Below are positions 12,614-49,061 of a DNA stretch of 64,000 bases, one piece after another. The notes under the pieces were generated by a model that saw only the letters and a program-made list of their open reading frames with translations, was not told the origin of the DNA and did not search any database. The stretch's first letter is position 1. Each line of letters starts with the position of its first letter. The translations under genes were made by a program, and so were the position numbers. Source of the DNA: Cyanobacteria bacterium SIG28 (GTDB lineage: Bacteria; Cyanobacteriota; Vampirovibrionia; Gastranaerophilales; Gastranaerophilaceae). The DNA lies in NCBI GenBank assembly GCA_015152525.1, contig SUTU01000003.1, positions 1 to 64,000 of the forward strand, read 5' to 3'.

Positions 12614-13195
12614 CTATTTTGTTGTTTGAATAAACAAACTTATCAAATCATTCAACGCTGAATATTGTTTTTGATAATTTTGTGATTGTTTTTCAAGAGC
12701 TAAAATTTGTTTTTTATATTCTTGAATAGTTCCTTGGCACTCTCTTGCTGAAACTTTTAAATTTTCTTGAACTTGTTGTGCATCTTGTAAAACACTTTTC
12801 ATAGAAATACCAAGAGCTTCCATTGTTTGTTTAATAATTTGTGCGCCGGTATGTCTTGAAACACCACTTGGTAATTGAGAAATAAGCTTTTTCAAAACGG
12901 TTATGTTTGAAGGCATTTCAAAATTATCACCGGAAGTTTCTATAATAGGTGTTTGAACTTTAGGTTCTGCAAATATTGATTCTTTTTCTTCTAAATCGTC
13001 AAAGAATGAAGATTTTGTGCTTGGTGTTTCTGCAAAAAAGTCATCTTCTTGTGATGTTGCAAAATTTTCAGTAGTTTCAACTACCGGTTCTTCTTCTGCA
13101 AAAAGTAATTCAGCATCATTTTCTTGTTTATCCATATTTTCAGCTTGTTTCTTTAAAGCTTCTACGATTTTTTTTCCAACACTCTCGTTATTCAT
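12614..13195 (-). CDS. Hypothetical acidic/coiled-coil protein
   Basis: The protein is 193 residues from an ATG at 13195 that follows GAGGGAGT; a longer reading start at 13255 has no ribosome site. The N-terminal half is acidic and low-complexity (repeated AEEEPV, FAETPS, FAEPKV-type stretches). The C-terminal half is helical: LKKLISQLPSGVSRHTGAQI, IIKQTMEALGISMKSVLQDA, and a coiled coil ending in YSALNDLISLFIQTTK. The arrangement suggests a cytoplasmic scaffold or regulatory protein, but I do not recognise the family. Confidence 0.65.
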   Translation of the reverse strand: MNNESVGKKIVEALKKQAENMDKQENDAELLFAEEEPVVETTENFATSQEDDFFAETPSTKSSFFDDLEEKESIFAEPKVQTPIIETSGDNFEMPSNITVLKKLISQLPSGVSRHTGAQIIKQTMEALGISMKSVLQDAQQVQENLKVSARECQGTIQEYKKQILALEKQSQNYQKQYSALNDLISLFIQTTK

Positions 13196-13322
13196 GTTAT
13201 ACTCCCTCGTATATTTTACTGAATTAATTATAAAAGAAACATTCTTAAAATCCAATCAAAATCATGATTATTGTTATGTTTCGTAATAATTTTATTATAT
13301 AATTACTAACAGAGAGGATTTA

Positions 13323-14357
13323 ATGGAGAAAATTATGACTAAAAATATTGATTGGAGTAACCTAGGCTTCGGATATATCCAAACAGATTTCAGGTATGTA
13401 TCTAATTTTAAAAACGGAAGTTGGGATGATGGAAATATAACAACTGATGCAACTGTTACTCTAAGTGAGAGTGCTGGTGTACTACAATATGCTCAGACAT
13501 GTTTTGAAGGTTTAAAGGCTTATAGAACTGTTGATAATAAAGTGGTTTGTTTCCGTCCTGATATGAATGCAAAAAGAATGATTGATACTTGTAAAAGATT
13601 GGAAATGCCTATTTTTGCAGAAGATAGGTTTGTTGATGCTGTAGTTAAAACAGTAAAAGCAAATCTTGAATCTGTTCCGCCTTATGGTTCTGGTGCAACT
13701 TTGTATTTAAGACCATACATGTTTGCATCAAGTGCTGTAATTGGTGTTAAGCCGGCTGAAGAATATCAATTTAGAATTTTTGCAACTCCTGTTGGTCCTT
13801 ATTTTAAGGGTGGCGCAAAAGCGATAACTTTAAGAGTATCTGATTTTGACCGTGCTGCACCTCGCGGGACCGGTCATATCAAAGCCGGATTGAATTATGC
13901 GATGAGTCTGCACGCAATTGTTGATGCGCACAAACAAGGTTATGACGAAAATATGTACTTGGATTCTGAAACAAGAACAAAAGTTGAAGAAACCGGAGGT
14001 GCAAACTTTATTTTTGTAACTAAAGATAATAAAGTTATTACACCAAAATCAAATACAATTTTGCCTTCAATAACAAGACGTTCATTGATGTATGTTGCAG
14101 AGCATTATTTAGGTTTAAAAACAGAAGAACGAGAAGTTGCTTTAACTGAATTAAACGAATTTAAAGAATGTGCTCTTTGCGGTACGGCAGCAGTTTTGAC
14201 ACCGGTAGGAAAAGTTATTGACCATGGAAAAGAAGCTTTTGTGTCAAAATCTTCTGAACCAATGGGTGAAATTACAAAAAAACTTTATGATACCCTTACA
14301 GGTATTCAAATGGGCAAAATTGAAGCACCTGAAAATTGGATTAAAGTTATTGAATAG
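13323..14357 (+). CDS. ilvE: Branched-chain amino acid aminotransferase
   Basis: This class-IV PLP aminotransferase carries out the final transamination of Val, Leu and Ile synthesis, or their degradation. Seen in the 344 residues: IDWSNLGFGYIQTDF at the N-terminus, typical of the BCAT type-II subfamily; YAQTCFEGLKAYR; YLRPYMFAS; the PLP lysine in GTGHIKAGLNYAMS (about residue 190); and EETGGANFIFVT. The ATG at 13323 has GAGAGGA 5 nt upstream; an internal ATG at 13335 also has GGAG upstream and would remove four residues. A TATAAT lies at 13298-13303. It ends in a terminator. Confidence 0.93.
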   Translation: MEKIMTKNIDWSNLGFGYIQTDFRYVSNFKNGSWDDGNITTDATVTLSESAGVLQYAQTCFEGLKAYRTVDNKVVCFRPDMNAKRMIDTCKRLEMPIFAEDRFVDAVVKTVKANLESVPPYGSGATLYLRPYMFASSAVIGVKPAEEYQFRIFATPVGPYFKGGAKAITLRVSDFDRAAPRGTGHIKAGLNYAMSLHAIVDAHKQGYDENMYLDSETRTKVEETGGANFIFVTKDNKVITPKSNTILPSITRRSLMYVAEHYLGLKTEEREVALTELNEFKECALCGTAAVLTPVGKVIDHGKEAFVSKSSEPMGEITKKLYDTLTGIQMGKIEAPENWIKVIE

Positions 14358-14378
14358 TTTTAATTAAGTAAATATTTT

Positions 14379-14411
14379 AAAACAGCAAGTAGTTTTTCTG
14401 CTTGCTGTTTT
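14379..14411 (+). terminator. Rho-independent terminator of ilvE
   Basis: AAAACAGCAAG pairs with CTTGCTGTTTT around an 11-nt loop, with T at the 3' side. Confidence 0.8.
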
Positions 14412-14422
14412 AGTGGTTTAAG

Positions 14423-14676
14423 TATATATTTTGATGTATTTATATATTCTGTTTATTAGGTACTTTTTTGAGCTGGTTAAAAGAATAAAAGATTGGATGA
14501 AATCCAAAAAGAAAAACAGCCGAACAAAGTGAGGATGTAGAAAACAATTGCGTCTTTTCTTCTTTTTTTGGTACTTTTTTTCTTCTTTGGCTCGCAAATA
14601 AAGAAGAAAAAAAGTACAAGAACAAAAACATTTAAACGAAAAAATAATTATTAATACAAACTCATCAAAATATATA
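14423..14676. repeat. Dispersed MITE-like repeat, copy 2 (most complete)
   Basis: The 254-bp element is bounded by terminal inverted repeats: TATATATTTTGATGTATTT (14423-14441) against AAACTCATCAAAATATATA (14658-14676), 17 of 19 positions complementary. Inside is a perfect 18-bp stem (14571-14588 with 14600-14617) around the loop GGCTCGCAAAT, the same loop as at 17-27. It carries about 110 bp (roughly 14442-14565) absent from the copy at 44.26 kb, including a small stem ATTGGAT/ATCCAAA. No reading frame here looks coding; the frames through it are low-complexity shadows of the stem. This fills most of the 598-bp gap between ilvE and nrdG. Confidence 0.72.
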
Positions 14677-38862: not shown

Positions 38863-39647
38863 CTTTTTTTAATTTTTCATATACTGATACTCATAAAATA
38901 TTTTCGGTCGGTAAAAATAGTTTTATAAGACTTAAGTTTAAATTAAATACTAAGGAATTAAAAAAAAGAAGAATATTAAATTTAAAAGAAAATAATAATA
39001 TTATTTCTTTAGTAAAAGAAAACGGCGAAATTGAGTATTATCCGGATTTATTAAATATACAAATAGAATTTTATGGTAAAAATAATGTAGTTGAATTGCA
39101 CGAGCCTTTATCAACTTTTTCTAATTGTAGAATAATTTTACAAGATAATTCAAGTGTTAAAATTTTAAAACAACAAGAACATCAAATAGCTAATTTATAT
39201 ATTTTTGCTAGATATTCTACGGGTATTAATATTAGTATAGGGGAGAATTGTTCTATTAATCAATTAAATATAGAAGCTACACGTTCAAAAGATTTAATAT
39301 GTCAGATTGGAAATAATTGTATGATTTCGTCAGATACAATGCTACGGTTGCATGATGCTCACACAATTTATGATGTGAACACTAAATTACCTCTAAATAA
39401 ACCTAGTAAAGGAATAGTTATTGGTGATAATTGTTGGATTTCTCAATTTGTAAAAATTTTAAAAGATGTTGAGATTCCTGCAAGTTCTATAATAGGTATC
39501 GGTTCGATTGTAACTAAGTCTTTTGAAAAAGAAAATACAATCATTGCCGGAATACCAGCTAAAATTGTCCGTGAAAATATTGCCTGGGATAGATTAAATG
39601 TGTTTTCCTATGAAGAGAATCTAATGAGGAATGAATTAAATGTCTAA
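38850..39647 (+). CDS. Hexapeptide-repeat acyltransferase, probable TTG start
   Basis: The 265-residue protein shares the domain plan of its neighbour: HKIFSVGKNSFIRLKFKLN at the N-terminus, then beta-helix turns ISIGENCSINQLNIEATRSK, CQIGNNCMISSDTMLRLHDA, IVIGDNCWISQFVKILKDV and IPASSIIGIGSIVTKSF. The His-Asp site is LHDAH. No ATG lies near the start of the homologous region; the TTG at 38850 is preceded by AGAGGTG at good spacing inside the preceding gene, so I use it. The 3' end overlaps the fusion gene by 8 nt. Confidence 0.8.
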   Translation: MAKVAFFNFSYTDTHKIFSVGKNSFIRLKFKLNTKELKKRRILNLKENNNIISLVKENGEIEYYPDLLNIQIEFYGKNNVVELHEPLSTFSNCRIILQDNSSVKILKQQEHQIANLYIFARYSTGINISIGENCSINQLNIEATRSKDLICQIGNNCMISSDTMLRLHDAHTIYDVNTKLPLNKPSKGIVIGDNCWISQFVKILKDVEIPASSIIGIGSIVTKSFEKENTIIAGIPAKIVRENIAWDRLNVFSYEENLMRNELNV

Positions 39648-42318
39648 TAAAATGAATATTGTATATACATTTTCTGGTGAAGAAATAAAAATGCTTATGG
39701 TGTCTATCCAAAGTGTTTTAGAAAACAATAAAGATTCATTGATAACTTTTTATGTTGCCACAAGTGATAATAATATTGATGAAAAATACCTAAAAATATT
39801 AAATAATTTCGAACAATATGAAAATTGTTGTAAAATTGAAGTTATAAAAATTGATAAAAATAAATATTATGTTCTGAAACCTCAAATTGTTAACTATCAT
39901 TTTTCATATGTTTATGAATTATCTGAAATATTAAATGTTGATAAGTTTTTGTATTTAAATTTTTTTTGTATTGTAAAAGAAAATATTAGAAATTTATATG
40001 ATTCTTTAGGAAATTATGATCTCACTCTTTGTGAACATGTTTTTAATAATTTAAATCAAAGATTAAAGAACACAGTTTTAAGCAATCTTGTCATGGTTGT
40101 AAATTCAAAAAAATGGAAAGAAAAACAGTATTTAAAAAAATTCTTATCCAAAAACTATCTTCCACAGTTAGATGAAGATGAAGTTTTATACGATTGTGAC
40201 TGTTTTAATTTAATTATTGAAAATGCTAAGATATTAGATTTGAAATATAATTATTGCGAAAATTGGTATTTAAAAGATGTTAAATTGCAAGTTGCATCAG
40301 ATGTAAAAAGTAAATACCAAAAATTCAAATCTCACATTGAAACACCGGCGATTATTACTTTTATCGGACCGAAGCCTATTGGTGATGAGCCTTGCAAAAA
40401 CAGCTATACCTCTCTCTGGTGGTCGTATGCTGAAAAAACACCTATTTATAATGAAATAAAAGAGTACAGACAATTAAATAAGTATAAACTTGCCTCTACT
40501 TCTGCTCAAAACTCTTTTAAATATACATGGCTTTTATCCAGAATTTATCCATACATAAAACCTTATTGGTTTAGAATCCTATTAGGTTTTGCTATTGCAA
40601 TTCCTTTAGGTTTGCTGGACGGCGTTACAGCTTTTGCACTTAAGCCTTATATGGATTATGTTATTGGCGGTAAAGCGTTTGAATATTCTTATAATGGAAT
40701 TAATATAAGTATTTCAAGCTTACAAATGGCGTATGTTATTCCTATTGGAGTTATTTTGTTTGCAGCTGTTCAAGGTGTTTTGAGATACTTAAACGGATAT
40801 TTTTCAAGCTGGGTTAGTGCAAGAATTACTAATGATGTAAAATTTGACCTATTTGAACGTTTAATCCACATGCATCCGCAATTCTTTGATGATAACTCTT
40901 CAGGTATTGTAATTTCTCGTTATATGAATGATCCGACAACTGCATCAGCAGGTATTGTTGAAAATATTAAAACAATTACAACATCTTTATGTGGTGCGCT
41001 GGGTTTAATTGCGGTTATGTTATATAGTTCTTGGAAGCTTGCGTTTATCGGCGTATTAGTCCTTTGCATTGCTTTTATACCTGTTTTTTTAATCAGAAAA
41101 AGGCTGAAAGATGCTTCTAACAAAAACATGGTTATCGGTGGTAAAATAACCACAAATATAAACGAAACATATTCCGGTAATAAAGTGATGACAGCTTACG
41201 GTTTGCAAGATAGGCAGAATGCATATTTCCAAGAACAAGTATGGAATAGTTATCATATCGGGATGGCTTTATACAAACGTGCAGGTTGGATGTCGCCGAT
41301 GATGTATTTAATAGCATCTTGTGGTATAGCAACTGTTCTAGGTGTCGGTACTTATTTAATCAATTCCGGTCAAATGACAGCAGGTGCGTTTGCATCATTT
41401 GTAACTTCGCTGTTATTACTGTATAAACCGGTTAAAACTTTAGGAAATACTTTGACAGGTATTCAAAACACATTTGTTGCTATGGGCAGGGTTTTTGAAT
41501 TGTTTGATTTAACATCAGCAATAACAGATTGCGAAAATCCTAAGGAATTAAACGGTTTGAATAATTCAATTACATTTGAAAATGTTATGTTTGAATATGT
41601 TCCGAACAAACCTGTGCTTAAAAATTTAAACTTAAACGTTAAGAAAAATGAAACTCTTGCTGTTGTCGGAAACTCCGGCGGTGGAAAATCGACTTTAGTA
41701 AATTTGATACCACGTTTTTATGACATCAAATCCGGTTCTTTAAAATTTGACGGTATTGATATAAAAGAACTCTCTTTAAAATCCTTAAGACAAAATATTT
41801 CTATGGTATTCCAAGATAATTTCTTATTTACCGGAACTATTAAAGAAAATATTATGATGGGAAAACCTGATGCTACAGCTGAAGAATTAATGACAGCAAT
41901 TAAGGCTGCTCATTTAGAAGATATGATAGCTCAGCTTCCGGACGGGGTGGATACTGAACTTGGTGAAAGGGGTTTAACTCTATCCGGCGGACAAAGACAA
42001 AGAGTCGCTATTGCACGTGCAATGCTTAGAAATGCGCCAATAGTAATTTTAGATGAAGCTACATCCGCATTGGATAATGAATCAGAAGCGATTGTTCAAA
42101 AAGCAATGGATAATTTGATGCAAAATAGAACAGTGTTTATTATTGCACACAGATTATCAACAATTAAGAATGCAGATAGGATTGCAGTAATCAATGAAGG
42201 CGAGCTGGTAGAGCTTGGAAGCCATGACGAATTGATGAAAATTGAGCATGGTCAGTATAAAGCTTTATATGAAATGCAGTTCAGAAAACAAGATGTTTTA
42301 GAAGGTGTTGGTTTGTAA
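39640..42318 (+). CDS. Degenerate GT8 domain fused to MsbA-type ABC exporter
   Basis: Residues 1 to about 270 resemble GT8 (LgtC-like) enzymes: MNIVYTFSGEEIKMLMVSIQ, VNYHFSYVYELSEILNVDKF, LSNLVMVVNSKKWKEKQYL and a late TFIGPKPIG standing for HFxGxxKPW. The metal-binding DxD after the conserved F-L-Y-L is Asn-Phe-Phe (FLYLNFFCIV), so catalysis is doubtful. Residues about 300-590 are the six-helix ABC exporter domain (LGFAIAIPLGLLDGVTAFAL onward). The ATPase has GNSGGGKSTL (about 676), LSGGQRQRVAIARAM (about 780), IVILDEATSALD (about 800) and AHRLST. As last gene of the operon it should flip the lipid-linked glycan; the GT8-like part may recognise the glycan. G+C changes sharply near 40,320-40,380, inside the GT8 region. 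Confidence 0.87.
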   Translation: MSNKMNIVYTFSGEEIKMLMVSIQSVLENNKDSLITFYVATSDNNIDEKYLKILNNFEQYENCCKIEVIKIDKNKYYVLKPQIVNYHFSYVYELSEILNVDKFLYLNFFCIVKENIRNLYDSLGNYDLTLCEHVFNNLNQRLKNTVLSNLVMVVNSKKWKEKQYLKKFLSKNYLPQLDEDEVLYDCDCFNLIIENAKILDLKYNYCENWYLKDVKLQVASDVKSKYQKFKSHIETPAIITFIGPKPIGDEPCKNSYTSLWWSYAEKTPIYNEIKEYRQLNKYKLASTSAQNSFKYTWLLSRIYPYIKPYWFRILLGFAIAIPLGLLDGVTAFALKPYMDYVIGGKAFEYSYNGINISISSLQMAYVIPIGVILFAAVQGVLRYLNGYFSSWVSARITNDVKFDLFERLIHMHPQFFDDNSSGIVISRYMNDPTTASAGIVENIKTITTSLCGALGLIAVMLYSSWKLAFIGVLVLCIAFIPVFLIRKRLKDASNKNMVIGGKITTNINETYSGNKVMTAYGLQDRQNAYFQEQVWNSYHIGMALYKRAGWMSPMMYLIASCGIATVLGVGTYLINSGQMTAGAFASFVTSLLLLYKPVKTLGNTLTGIQNTFVAMGRVFELFDLTSAITDCENPKELNGLNNSITFENVMFEYVPNKPVLKNLNLNVKKNETLAVVGNSGGGKSTLVNLIPRFYDIKSGSLKFDGIDIKELSLKSLRQNISMVFQDNFLFTGTIKENIMMGKPDATAEELMTAIKAAHLEDMIAQLPDGVDTELGERGLTLSGGQRQRVAIARAMLRNAPIVILDEATSALDNESEAIVQKAMDNLMQNRTVFIIAHRLSTIKNADRIAVINEGELVELGSHDELMKIEHGQYKALYEMQFRKQDVLEGVGL

Positions 42319-45439: not shown

Positions 45440-47035
45440 ATGAATAAAATACAGATAAAAGCAGAGATTTTAGCAACTTTAAGAGTTTTAGCGAGTTCTT
45501 CTATTCCTGATGCTTCTTTGTTGACGGATTTAAAACTTATTGAGGATAAAGCTACAGTTTGTGATATTCTCATAAGGGAGATTGCACATGCTGATGAGCA
45601 TCGTGTTCTTTTAATTTGTTGGCTTTTGACTGAATTGATAGAAAAAGAACGTTTAAATGATGAATTATGGAACGTGATAAAGAGTCCTGATTATAGCGAT
45701 CACATAAAAATGATTGCATTCAATTTGTTGAAGGATTTAGGCAATAAAATTGATTACGAAGTTATCAGCGGATATTTTGAAAAATTTGATGAGCTAATAA
45801 ATAAGGAAACTCGAGAACTTTTGGATACTGCAATAATGAATCCTGAAGCTCAAATCGATTTTATGGATTTTATGAACGCATTAAACGATAATGACAAGAT
45901 TTTGTTAATACGTTCATTGGAAGAAGATTATGCAAATGATGCTTTGGCAAATATTTTAATTCCGGTTTTCTTGTACTATAAAGATACAGAAATAGGTGAT
46001 GTGGCATTAGAAATTTTATCAAATACCAAATCTCAATTGGCATATCATGCTTTAGAAAACACTTTAAAATATATTGATGAATCTGCAAAAGGGAAAATTA
46101 ATAAAGCATTATCAACTTTAAAACTGTCAGGTGTAAGAATCGATAATACAGTTGATTTCTATAAAGAAATTTTATGTGAATCAAAACCTTACAAATCTTA
46201 TATTTCATTCCCTGACGGTCATGGAAACTTGGCGATTATATTTTCAAGAATCAGAGCTGATAAAACTCTACAATTTTTGGCATTAGTTGTTAATCCTAGA
46301 TATGGAATTTTGGATTCATTCGGATTTAATGAAATGAAAGAAGATGATTTCTATAAAATTATCGATAAATTTTATAATTATCAAGAAAGATACGAAATCC
46401 CTTGCGGTGTTGTTAAATATTTATTGAATAATGCGATAGATACATCTTTTAAAAACGGTGAACCTATTCCTTATGAATATATCTGCTGGGAAAGCATTTT
46501 ATTAGATATAGACGAAGAAAAACCGATAGTTGAATTGGATAAAAAAGAACTTAACCAAAAAGAAATTGATAAGCTTTGTTTGAGCGAATTTGTTCAAAAC
46601 TGGTTTTTTGATGAAGTTACAAACCCTCAATTTAAACTTTTTGTTGAAAAATTGTCTGAAGAGTTAAAAGCTCATAATTACTTAATAGATTTGGATAAAT
46701 TTGTGGCTGATAATTATGATGGCATATTTGACACAAAAGAGTTAACATATCAAATGCTAACGTTCAATGTAGCTGCTTATTTAAGACTTTTAAAAGGTGA
46801 TAAAGAGTATGCTCAGTTATTCTATTCATTAGGAACAAACTATGCATTTTTAACCAATATACTAAGAAAAAGTATTTATGAGTACTATGTTGGAAAGAGA
46901 TTTTTGTTAAAGAACCAAAAAAATGCTGCCAATATGTTTGAAAGAAAATTACAATCCGGATTTGAAGATTTTGAGCTCTTGCAACTGGATATGATCATCT
47001 CAAGTATTGAGGCAAGGTGGGTTGATAATGCATAA
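45440..47035 (+). CDS. Large hypothetical protein with HEAT-like helical repeats
   Basis: The 531-residue soluble protein has an N-terminal half of paired amphipathic helices resembling HEAT repeats (for example EHRVLLICWLLTELIEKERL, IKMIAFNLLKDLGNKIDYEV, GDVALEILSNTKSQLAYHAL). The middle is mixed alpha/beta (SYISFPDGHGNLAIIFSRIR). The C-terminal helical region ends ILRKSIYEYYVGKRFLLKNQ. I recognise no named family. GGAGAG precedes the ATG. The stop overlaps ruvX by 8 nt, so they form an operon aroE-this-ruvX-DUF1292. Confidence 0.7.
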   Translation: MNKIQIKAEILATLRVLASSSIPDASLLTDLKLIEDKATVCDILIREIAHADEHRVLLICWLLTELIEKERLNDELWNVIKSPDYSDHIKMIAFNLLKDLGNKIDYEVISGYFEKFDELINKETRELLDTAIMNPEAQIDFMDFMNALNDNDKILLIRSLEEDYANDALANILIPVFLYYKDTEIGDVALEILSNTKSQLAYHALENTLKYIDESAKGKINKALSTLKLSGVRIDNTVDFYKEILCESKPYKSYISFPDGHGNLAIIFSRIRADKTLQFLALVVNPRYGILDSFGFNEMKEDDFYKIIDKFYNYQERYEIPCGVVKYLLNNAIDTSFKNGEPIPYEYICWESILLDIDEEKPIVELDKKELNQKEIDKLCLSEFVQNWFFDEVTNPQFKLFVEKLSEELKAHNYLIDLDKFVADNYDGIFDTKELTYQMLTFNVAAYLRLLKGDKEYAQLFYSLGTNYAFLTNILRKSIYEYYVGKRFLLKNQKNAANMFERKLQSGFEDFELLQLDMIISSIEARWVDNA

Positions 47036-47432: not shown

Positions 47433-47702
47433 ATGACAAATGAAGAACAAAATTTTGTAGAAATTACCGATGAAGAAGGTAATGTAACTCAGTGTGAAGT
47501 GTATGATATTGTAGAGTTTGAAGAAAAAACTTATGCTTTATTATTACCTGTTGACGATGAATCAGAAGAAGAACCTGAATTAATAGTTCTTGAATATATT
47601 GAAGAAGGCGAAGAATGCTTCTTCCAAAATATCGAAGACGATGAAGAATTTGACAGAGTTTGTGAATATATCGAAACACTTGCAGAAGAAGTTGAAGAAT
47701 AA
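47433..47702 (+). CDS. DUF1292-family acidic protein
   Basis: The 89-residue, highly acidic protein has NFVEITDEEGNVTQCEVYDI, VEFEEKTYALLLPVDDESEE, LIVLEYIEEGEECFFQNIED and a final EEFDRVCEYIETLAEEVEE. This is the DUF1292 pattern (YrzB of Bacillus), which typically follows ruvX as here. Function unknown. It starts 6 nt after ruvX. Confidence 0.9.
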   Translation: MTNEEQNFVEITDEEGNVTQCEVYDIVEFEEKTYALLLPVDDESEEEPELIVLEYIEEGEECFFQNIEDDEEFDRVCEYIETLAEEVEE

Positions 47703-47717: not shown

Positions 47718-49061
47718 ATGTTTGAACGTTTTACAGAAAAAGCTATAAATGCGGTTAGTGAAGCTCAGAGATTTGCGAAAGAATACAAATGCTCTGAAGT
47801 TACGCCGGAACATCTTTTGTTGGCTCTCGTAAGCGAAGCAAAAGGTGTGTCATTGAAGCTTTTTCGTATGTATAACGTAACATTTGATTCTGTAAATACA
47901 GAAATTACAAAATATGTGATATCCGGTGCTAAAACACCGGAATACATTCCGTTCAGTCATACTGTTAAAGATATTCTTAAACGTACTTTGGATTTGGCTT
48001 CAAAATCCGGTAACCAAAATATACTGTTTGAACACTTATTTTTGTCTGTTATAACTGATAAAAACTCTAATATTCAGACAATTTTGGATACTTTTAATTT
48101 TGATATTAATACAGCGAGAGAAATTCTTACAAAGTTGGTGCAACGCAAGATTAAAAGGTTAGAGCATCCTGAAGTTGAAGAAGATGATGAAAAACAAAAC
48201 GGGTTTGAATCATTGTATGAGGGTGAAGCTCTTTCTGAAGTTTTGGACGGCGCAGTATCAAAACTTTCAGCAGCCGGATATGAAATATTAGGAACAGAAC
48301 AAATTTTGGCTTCGATTTTAGAATCAGGAAATTCAACTCTTGTTTCAACTTTGCAAGCAAATGGAATTGATGCACAACTTTTTGAAGAAAAATTAAAAAG
48401 TGGTGTCGGTTCAAGAAAATCTGAGTATGAAGATAAAAAAATAATTTTTACACCTAATGCTTTTATGATGATGAATTTAGCGATGCAAATAGCAAAAGAG
48501 TTGGGTTCATCGGTGATAACTCCTGAGCATATCGTTTTGAGCATTTTAAAAAATAAAAAAGGACTGGCATATGAAATTTTGAAAGTCTTGAATATAAATG
48601 AAGAAAAGCTTTCTGAAGAAATTATACGTCCTATTGAAAAACAAATGCCTGAAACTCTTTTAATAATGAAGCTTGCTAAAGAAGAAGCTCGCAGATTAGG
48701 CAGAAATGTTGTCGGTACGGAAATGTTTTTGCTTGGAATTATCGGTGAAGGTGCAAGCGTTGCTTCTGAAGTTTTGAGTAATTTAGAAATTACGATGAAG
48801 GATGCAAGATTTGTAGTAGAAAGCCTTGTAGGATATGGTAACGAATATTTTGAAAAGGAAATTGTTTTTACCAAACGTGCTAAGAGAGTTCTCGAAAAAG
48901 CTTGGATTTCAGCTAAAAAATCTAATAAGCAAAGAATTGAAGCTGTAGACTTATTGCTTGCGTTAATAGATGAGCCGGATTCTTTAGCTATGAAAGTGCT
49001 GGACAGTTTGGGTGTTGATGCTGTGGAAATTAAGCACGGTATTCAAGGTATAACTAAATAA
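47718..49061 (+). CDS. Stand-alone triple Clp N-domain (Clp_N/R-domain) protein without ATPase
   Basis: The 447-residue protein consists of about six helical Clp repeats, that is three Clp_N domains (roughly residues 1-150, 165-305 and 308-447). The first is closest to ClpC: MFERFTEKAINAVSEAQRFA, CSEVTPEHLLLALVSEAKGV, then FSHTVKDILKRTLDLA with ILFEHLFLSVITD. The others keep the plan: GYEILGTEQILASILESGNS, SSVITPEHIVLSILKNKKGL, RNVVGTEMFLLGIIGEGASV and QRIEAVDLLLALIDEPDSLA. No Walker A, Walker B or M-domain is present. It may be an adaptor for a ClpC/ClpP system or a substrate-binding decoy. AGAGG precedes the ATG, 15 nt after DUF1292. Confidence 0.88.
   Translation: MFERFTEKAINAVSEAQRFAKEYKCSEVTPEHLLLALVSEAKGVSLKLFRMYNVTFDSVNTEITKYVISGAKTPEYIPFSHTVKDILKRTLDLASKSGNQNILFEHLFLSVITDKNSNIQTILDTFNFDINTAREILTKLVQRKIKRLEHPEVEEDDEKQNGFESLYEGEALSEVLDGAVSKLSAAGYEILGTEQILASILESGNSTLVSTLQANGIDAQLFEEKLKSGVGSRKSEYEDKKIIFTPNAFMMMNLAMQIAKELGSSVITPEHIVLSILKNKKGLAYEILKVLNINEEKLSEEIIRPIEKQMPETLLIMKLAKEEARRLGRNVVGTEMFLLGIIGEGASVASEVLSNLEITMKDARFVVESLVGYGNEYFEKEIVFTKRAKRVLEKAWISAKKSNKQRIEAVDLLLALIDEPDSLAMKVLDSLGVDAVEIKHGIQGITK

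Follow-up and report, generated by a model that had tools for sequence, protein, structure and literature searches.

To our knowledge, the way in which ClpC is directed to its targets has been worked out in only a few model bacteria. A locus from Cyanobacteria bacterium SIG28, of the order Candidatus Gastranaerophilales, raises a related question: what is the function of a protein that has three Clp N-domains in series and no motor? The gene, here named ClpN6, lies in a 64,000-nucleotide stretch of contig SUTU01000003.1 (the window), with the following parts and neighbors.

45440..47035, + strand: 531-aa helical-repeat (HEAT-like) protein, a conserved member of the operon that belongs to no named family
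47433..47702, + strand: DUF1292 protein, 15 bp upstream of ClpN6; same operon in most family loci
47718..49061, + strand: ClpN6 ORF, 447 aa, ATG start; three tandem Clp N-domains, no AAA+ module
47718..48158, + strand: N-domain 1 (aa 1-147, repeats 1 and 2), with the start MFERFTEKAI as in ClpC
47763..47915, + strand: Clp_N repeat 1, 46.5 bits
47991..48137, + strand: Clp_N repeat 2, 33.2 bits
48165..48173, + strand: linker motif His-Pro-Glu (aa 150-152), identical in 79/79 orthologs
48219..48644, + strand: N-domain 2 (aa 168-309, repeats 3 and 4)
48270..48401, + strand: Clp_N repeat 3, 22.9 bits, the weakest of the six
48414..48425, + strand: R233..E236, a conserved segment that separates repeats 3 and 4 (79/79 and 77/79)
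48480..48626, + strand: Clp_N repeat 4, 46.5 bits
48630..48656, + strand: PIEKQMPET segment (aa 305-313), highly conserved, preceding domain 3
48645..49052, + strand: N-domain 3 (aa 310-445, repeats 5 and 6), the nearest to ClpC
48675..48833, + strand: Clp_N repeat 5, 35.2 bits
48912..49046, + strand: Clp_N repeat 6, 29.9 bits
49096..50448, + strand: tilS, directly downstream of ClpN6

Pfam placed Clp_N (PF02861) on six stretches of ClpN6 (E value, 1.3e-56) with 189 bits, above the gathering score of 20.7 for membership in this domain family, and all six repeats exceeded Pfam's cut-off in a six-frame search. The repeats pair into three N-domains. No AAA+ family was found by Pfam at an E value of ≤0.1, and ClpN6 lacks the AAA+ modules with Walker motifs that characterize the ClpC, ClpA, and ClpB unfoldases. 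The original prediction of six Clp repeats in 447 residues with no ATPase was therefore correct. The remaining Pfam matches, TFIID-18kDa and Med2, were both below their own cut-offs. PADLOC gave no defense-system match for ClpN6, and phrog_35667 (function unknown) in PHROGs matched domain 3 (E value, 7e-42), which we take as Clp_N likeness. An open full-length frame of 443 to 470 aa was present at all 79 ortholog loci examined. Hence, the ORF is real and is neither a chance frame nor an artifact.

Each third of ClpN6 separately matched ClpC N-domains in a phmmer search of PDB sequences, with E values of 5.4e-14 for domain 1, 1.1e-13 for domain 2 (B. subtilis ClpC), and 1.6e-31 for domain 3 (Arabidopsis ClpC1). 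Domain 3 is 44 to 46% identical to the N-domain of the same genome's ClpC. An AlphaFold2 model built from a 63-row alignment (pLDDT, 84; pTM, 0.58) has helical repeats in the expected order, with low-confidence linkers at residues 144-147, 156-165, and 237-242, and its best Foldseek match was the Arabidopsis ClpC1 N-domain. Superposition with VIA-align covered domains 1 and 3 and barely probed the domain 2 part. Modeled domain 3 superposed on ClpC N-domains with a Z score of 22 to 23 and on plant ClpT1/T2 with a Z score of 19, and modeled domain 1 superposed on ClpD and Hsp104 N-domains with a Z score of ~18. Domain 2 appears to be kin to Clp N-domains, an assignment that rests on sequence.

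As the original prediction had proposed, the three domains were compared with ClpC in a tree (84 domains, 146 columns, midpoint roots). Domain 2 formed one group (100/99), as did domain 3 (100/100), which adjoined ClpC with support of 97/84. With ClpB included, three long-branched ClpB rows fell among the domain 1 rows; once ClpB was omitted, domain 1 was also a single group (100/97), and support on the ClpC side was only 78/82. Two points are firm: the three domains were already separate when the sampled families of the order diverged, and domain 3 is the nearest of the three to ClpC.

The first ten residues of ClpN6, MFERFTEKAI, are identical to the start of ClpC, as might be seen if ClpN6 were a split, frameshifted, or decaying clpC. 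In the genome of the window (1.89 Mb in 26 contigs; completeness, 99.94%), the ten Clp_N matches fall within three proteins, namely, ClpN6, ClpC on contig 19, and ClpB on contig 15. The ClpC protein is complete, with 879 aa that include an N-domain, two AAA modules, a D2-small domain, and a UVR motif, which we take to mark the M-domain. Directly downstream of ClpN6 lies tilS and not an ATPase part, all 79 orthologs are intact, and the three diverged domains each form their own group in the tree without ClpB. We concluded that the original prediction, which had suggested looking for a clpC elsewhere, was right to dismiss a broken gene; with clpC and clpB intact elsewhere and every ortholog open, that explanation is ruled out to the point of being negligible. 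ClpS was not found in this genome, and the controls were matched in 5 of 14 cases; a usual adaptor thus appears to be missing. With regard to an arginine-phosphate reading, PF00217 (arginine kinase McsB) had no match in the genome, nor in any control genome.

In one draw, 128 of the 131 order genomes had a full-length ortholog, indicating a stable function. The gene is in two pieces on two contigs in G396 and was not found in G245 and G398. Elsewhere in the phylum, no full-length match was found in any of 161 genomes; among the matches listed, those outside the order covered only the domain 3 positions of the model and were in ClpC-length frames. In a second sample, full-length copies were present in all 34 genomes of the genus, including that of the window, and 19 of the 22 genomes that represented the order's other families had one as well. 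No full-length copy was found in the other three of these 22 (G039, G046, and G052) or in one genome of another order. Since 2 of 131 and 3 of 22 order genomes have no full-length copy, ClpN6 would not be essential, provided that those assemblies are complete there. A large-genome relative of the same class (G056) encodes ATPase-free Clp_N proteins of 248, 254, 316, 434, and 829 aa, the 829-aa and 434-aa arrays lying close together (L090:15801-18290 and 13153-14457, both − strand). The same genome, from a different family of the class, also encodes a 482-aa protein (L092:2900-4348, − strand) that combines a Clp N-domain with a protein kinase domain. Two viral contigs (L221 and L222) have partial Clp_N-like matches to the profile.

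The gene order that recurs in 100 ortholog loci is HEAT-like, YqgF, DUF1292, ClpN6, TilS, and Hpt; in other, distant lineages of the order, ClpN6 has different neighbors. We assigned the names YqgF, AroE, Rny, and YmdB from sequence; DUF1292, TilS, the phosphoribosyltransferase called Hpt here, ClpP, and ClpX were named from Pfam. In the 74 ortholog loci flanked by 4.5 kb or more on each side, the genes near ClpN6 were those for YqgF (56 loci), the HEAT-like protein (56), DUF1292 (54), TilS (53), and Hpt (50). Where DUF1292 is present (65 loci), its gap to ClpN6 was −1 to 19 bp, and the gap between ClpN6 and TilS was mostly −19 to 20 bp. These small gaps indicate an operon. In the window, clpP (51130) and clpX (51835) start 2.07 kb and 2.77 kb downstream of ClpN6, respectively, a nearness on which the original prediction had drawn. 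However, ClpP was near ClpN6 in only 14 of the 74 loci and ClpX in only 5. We therefore retain the nearness as a fact of the window and reject it as a general functional clue. The 531-aa protein has no Pfam, NCBIfam, PHROG, or PADLOC family; its AlphaFold model (pLDDT, 86) consists of helical repeats, a beta sheet, and more helices, and Foldseek found no PDB match at an E value of ≤0.001. Farther upstream in the window, a single 892-aa ORF (39640-42318, + strand) combines a part resembling family 8 glycosyltransferases (26.1 bits versus 24.3) with an ABC exporter.

A zinc finger is the recognition domain of ClpX, the other Clp unfoldase. Of the 89 ortholog loci with at least 3.2 kb upstream, 48 encode a zinc-finger protein of ~91 aa that lies farther upstream than the HEAT-like gene, in every case on the same strand and as part of the same operon. 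One of these proteins was identified by Pfam as zf-C4_ClpX (49 bits versus 27), and the four cysteines in 14 of them align with those of the window's ClpX. An example of a stand-alone ClpX-type C4 zinc-finger protein is at L137:5451-5723 (+ strand). Two PF06689 matches were present in 93 of 97 family genomes; among the matches listed, one was in a ClpX-length frame (one of 217 aa) and the other was in a frame of 80 to 122 aa. The genomes with a single match (G000, G222, G231, and G020) are all of the window's genus, of which another member, G234, has two. In the window's own genome, PF06689 matched ClpX only; the stand-alone protein is absent there and hence cannot be needed. We concluded that the ClpX N-domain-only protein is a family trait mostly lost in the window's genus.

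As described in two papers, the ClpC N-domain has pArg pockets (E32/E106) and anchors (T7 and K85) (PMC12583610), and F2, F80, and E89 of the ClpC1 N-domain contact cyclomarin (PMC10030653). Conservation was counted in 79 orthologs from loci L009-L087. Domain 1 is the least conserved of the three domains, and it keeps counterparts F2 (70/79), T6 (79/79), E31 (75/79), F79 (79/79), K84 (72/79), and E105 (75/79). Only 27 of 147 domain 1 columns reach 70/79, so finding six of six landmarks at that level is unlikely by chance (P = 2e-5 against the other domain 1 columns, with the E89 counterpart left out of the count). The E89 counterpart is K88 in 66/79 and, if counted, makes one landmark of seven lost. 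Domain 2 keeps two glutamates (76/79 and 77/79) and F244 (75/79), with F249 replacing K85. Domain 3 keeps E335 (79/79), K389 (78/79), and F384 (68/79), but it carries I306 and M310, and its residue 410 varies (E in 20/79); it retains only three of six landmarks at the same threshold. The same sites were invariant in the 18 ClpC N-domains compared, and the shared fold may explain part of the conservation. The residues invariant among the orthologs include H150-P151-E152 in the first linker. By register, in an alignment made by eye, the PIEKQMPET segment may be the counterpart of MFERFTEKA in ClpC.

One study describes the ClpC N-domain as reading substrates and adaptors and as contacting the M-domain and the first ATPase ring, which locks the resting state (PMC12583610). 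ClpN6 keeps just the reading part, in triplicate and without the motor. We propose that it acts in trans as a recognition array for ClpC and, as an adaptor or a decoy, feeds or regulates that machine, and we give this proposal an even chance of being right. Its N-domains would bind ligands of the ClpC N-domain type, i.e., adaptors and unfolded or tagged segments. Because ClpC's own N-domain holds the enzyme inactive, free N-domains that contact ClpC could present clients to it or compete with the locking contacts. The activity of ClpCP would thereby be tuned, by help or by hindrance. In either case, ClpN6 probably steers or competes for ClpC's targets.

The proposal is built on observations: six Clp_N repeats with no ATPase, a model in which domains 1 and 3 superpose on Clp N-domains, conservation across the order (128/131), the kinship of domain 3 with ClpC (46% identity and grouping at 97/84), a complete ClpC in a genome where ClpS was not found, and domain 1 residues that match pArg-pocket, groove, and anchoring residues of ClpC named in the literature (PMC12583610, PMC10030653). 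The ClpX-type zinc-finger-only protein on the same strand upstream (48/89 loci) also favors it and is a better clue than the nearness to clpP and clpX. Conversely, landmark residues can be conserved for fold alone, the E89 counterpart is lost, and domain 3 keeps only half of the landmarks. The nearness to clpP and clpX is not conserved, the window's own genome has no copy of the zinc-finger protein, and the gene is missing from 2 of 131 genomes, with no full-length copy in 3 of 22 more distant ones. The adaptor or receptor role of the original prediction agrees with conservation across the order and with the retention of ligand-site residues; its argument from clpP and clpX did not hold up, and the role is one of several readings. 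A pure decoy or sponge would soak up ClpC N-domain ligands (toxic peptides, phage inhibitors, or excess adaptors) and so protect ClpC while delivering nothing. We consider this unlikely overall but a serious possibility, since ClpC2, which is N-domain-like and ATPase-free, does so for cyclomarin (PMC10030653), three domains would raise the capacity, and domain 1 keeps F2 and F79. However, the third ClpC1 contact, E89, is Lys in domain 1, so the cyclomarin contacts are not all present. DUF1292 lies −1 to 19 bp upstream in 65 loci, making ClpN6 operon-internal and leaving no room for an operator or promoter of its own at which ClpC2-type repression could act, and the housekeeping neighbors do not suggest an inducible gene.

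Two other readings place ClpN6 farther from ClpC. It might be a holdase or sensor module of a housekeeping (translation or tRNA) operon, acting apart from Clp. The steady neighbors YqgF, DUF1292, TilS, and Hpt would fit such a role, as would the kinase fusion of the Clp_N module seen in a related family of the class and the ClpN repeats fused to vWA proteins in conflict systems (PMC7159879). This is improbable given the ClpC-type ligand-site residues, the ClpX-type zinc-finger partner in many loci, and the different neighbors in distant lineages of the order. ClpN6 might also be an accessory subunit that docks on the ClpP ring and affects its assembly, as plant ClpT does; ClpT1/T2 are N-domain-only and superpose on domain 3, and clpP is near in 14 of 74 loci. 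That closeness is a minority state, however, the sequence match to ClpT is weak, and ClpT, with its single N-domain, is described as restricted to algae and plants (PMC7966870), making this reading very improbable. Returning to the ClpC recognition array, a broader and rather unlikely speculation is that Gastranaerophilales freed their Clp recognition domains, in the form of a triple ClpC N-domain in nearly all of the order and, in the window's family, a separate ClpX zinc finger, often in one operon, as an order-specific layer that allocates clients or adaptors between ClpCP and ClpXP.

This order of common gut bacteria, with no ClpS in the genome examined, thus has a conserved protein in which ClpC recognition domains are arrayed without a motor. 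ClpN6 is a naturally occurring case in which to ask whether N-domains on their own can control ClpC in trans, a question relevant to the N-domain as a drug target. The proposal is also a first testable role for a widespread gene of gut Gastranaerophilales. In the open-access literature (titles and abstract starts), we found no description of a tandem N-domain-only protein in Gastranaerophilales, and no open-access publication was found that joins Gastranaerophilales and clpC. With respect to that literature, the order-wide, three-domain, ATPase-free protein, accompanied in many genera by a free ClpX zinc finger, therefore appears new.

N-domain-only Clp proteins as such are already known, namely, ClpT, ClpC2, and perhaps a plastid clpN. 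Plant ClpT1 and ClpT2 are N-domain-only and share the fold of ClpN6, but they have a single domain against the three of ClpN6, are plastid proteins that bind the ClpP/R core, and have low sequence similarity to ClpN6 (PMC4243950, PMC7966870). ClpT1 also sets a precedent for an N-domain-only protein that associates with Hsp100 partners and alters the ATPase activity of one of them (PMC4243950). The Nannochloropsis plastid clpN is likewise a proposed free Clp N-domain, but it is single, has 149 aa, and has weak identity to ClpN6; the Nannochloropsis ClpC homologues apparently have no N-domain, whereas the ClpC in the window's genome keeps its own (PMC3999925). The vWA proteins resemble ClpN6 in having repeated Clp N-domains outside a Clp ATPase, but their repeats are fused and part of a multigene conflict system (PMC7159879), whereas PADLOC assigned ClpN6 to none. 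Mycobacterial ClpC2 is an ATPase-free partial ClpC homologue with the N-domain fold and counterparts of F2/F80; its one N-domain follows a nonhomologous dimerizing N-terminal part, and it acts as a repressor at its own promoter (PMC10030653). In contrast, ClpN6 starts directly with an N-domain, has three of them and no dimerizing part, and is an operon-internal gene. The ClpC N-domain itself (B. subtilis, M. tuberculosis ClpC1, and Arabidopsis ClpC1) is like ClpN6 in its fold, its two-repeat domain, the identity of domain 3 to the genome's own ClpC, and, for domain 1, the shared start and most of the ligand-site residues. Unlike ClpC, ClpN6 has three such domains in series, with no AAA+ rings and no M-domain.
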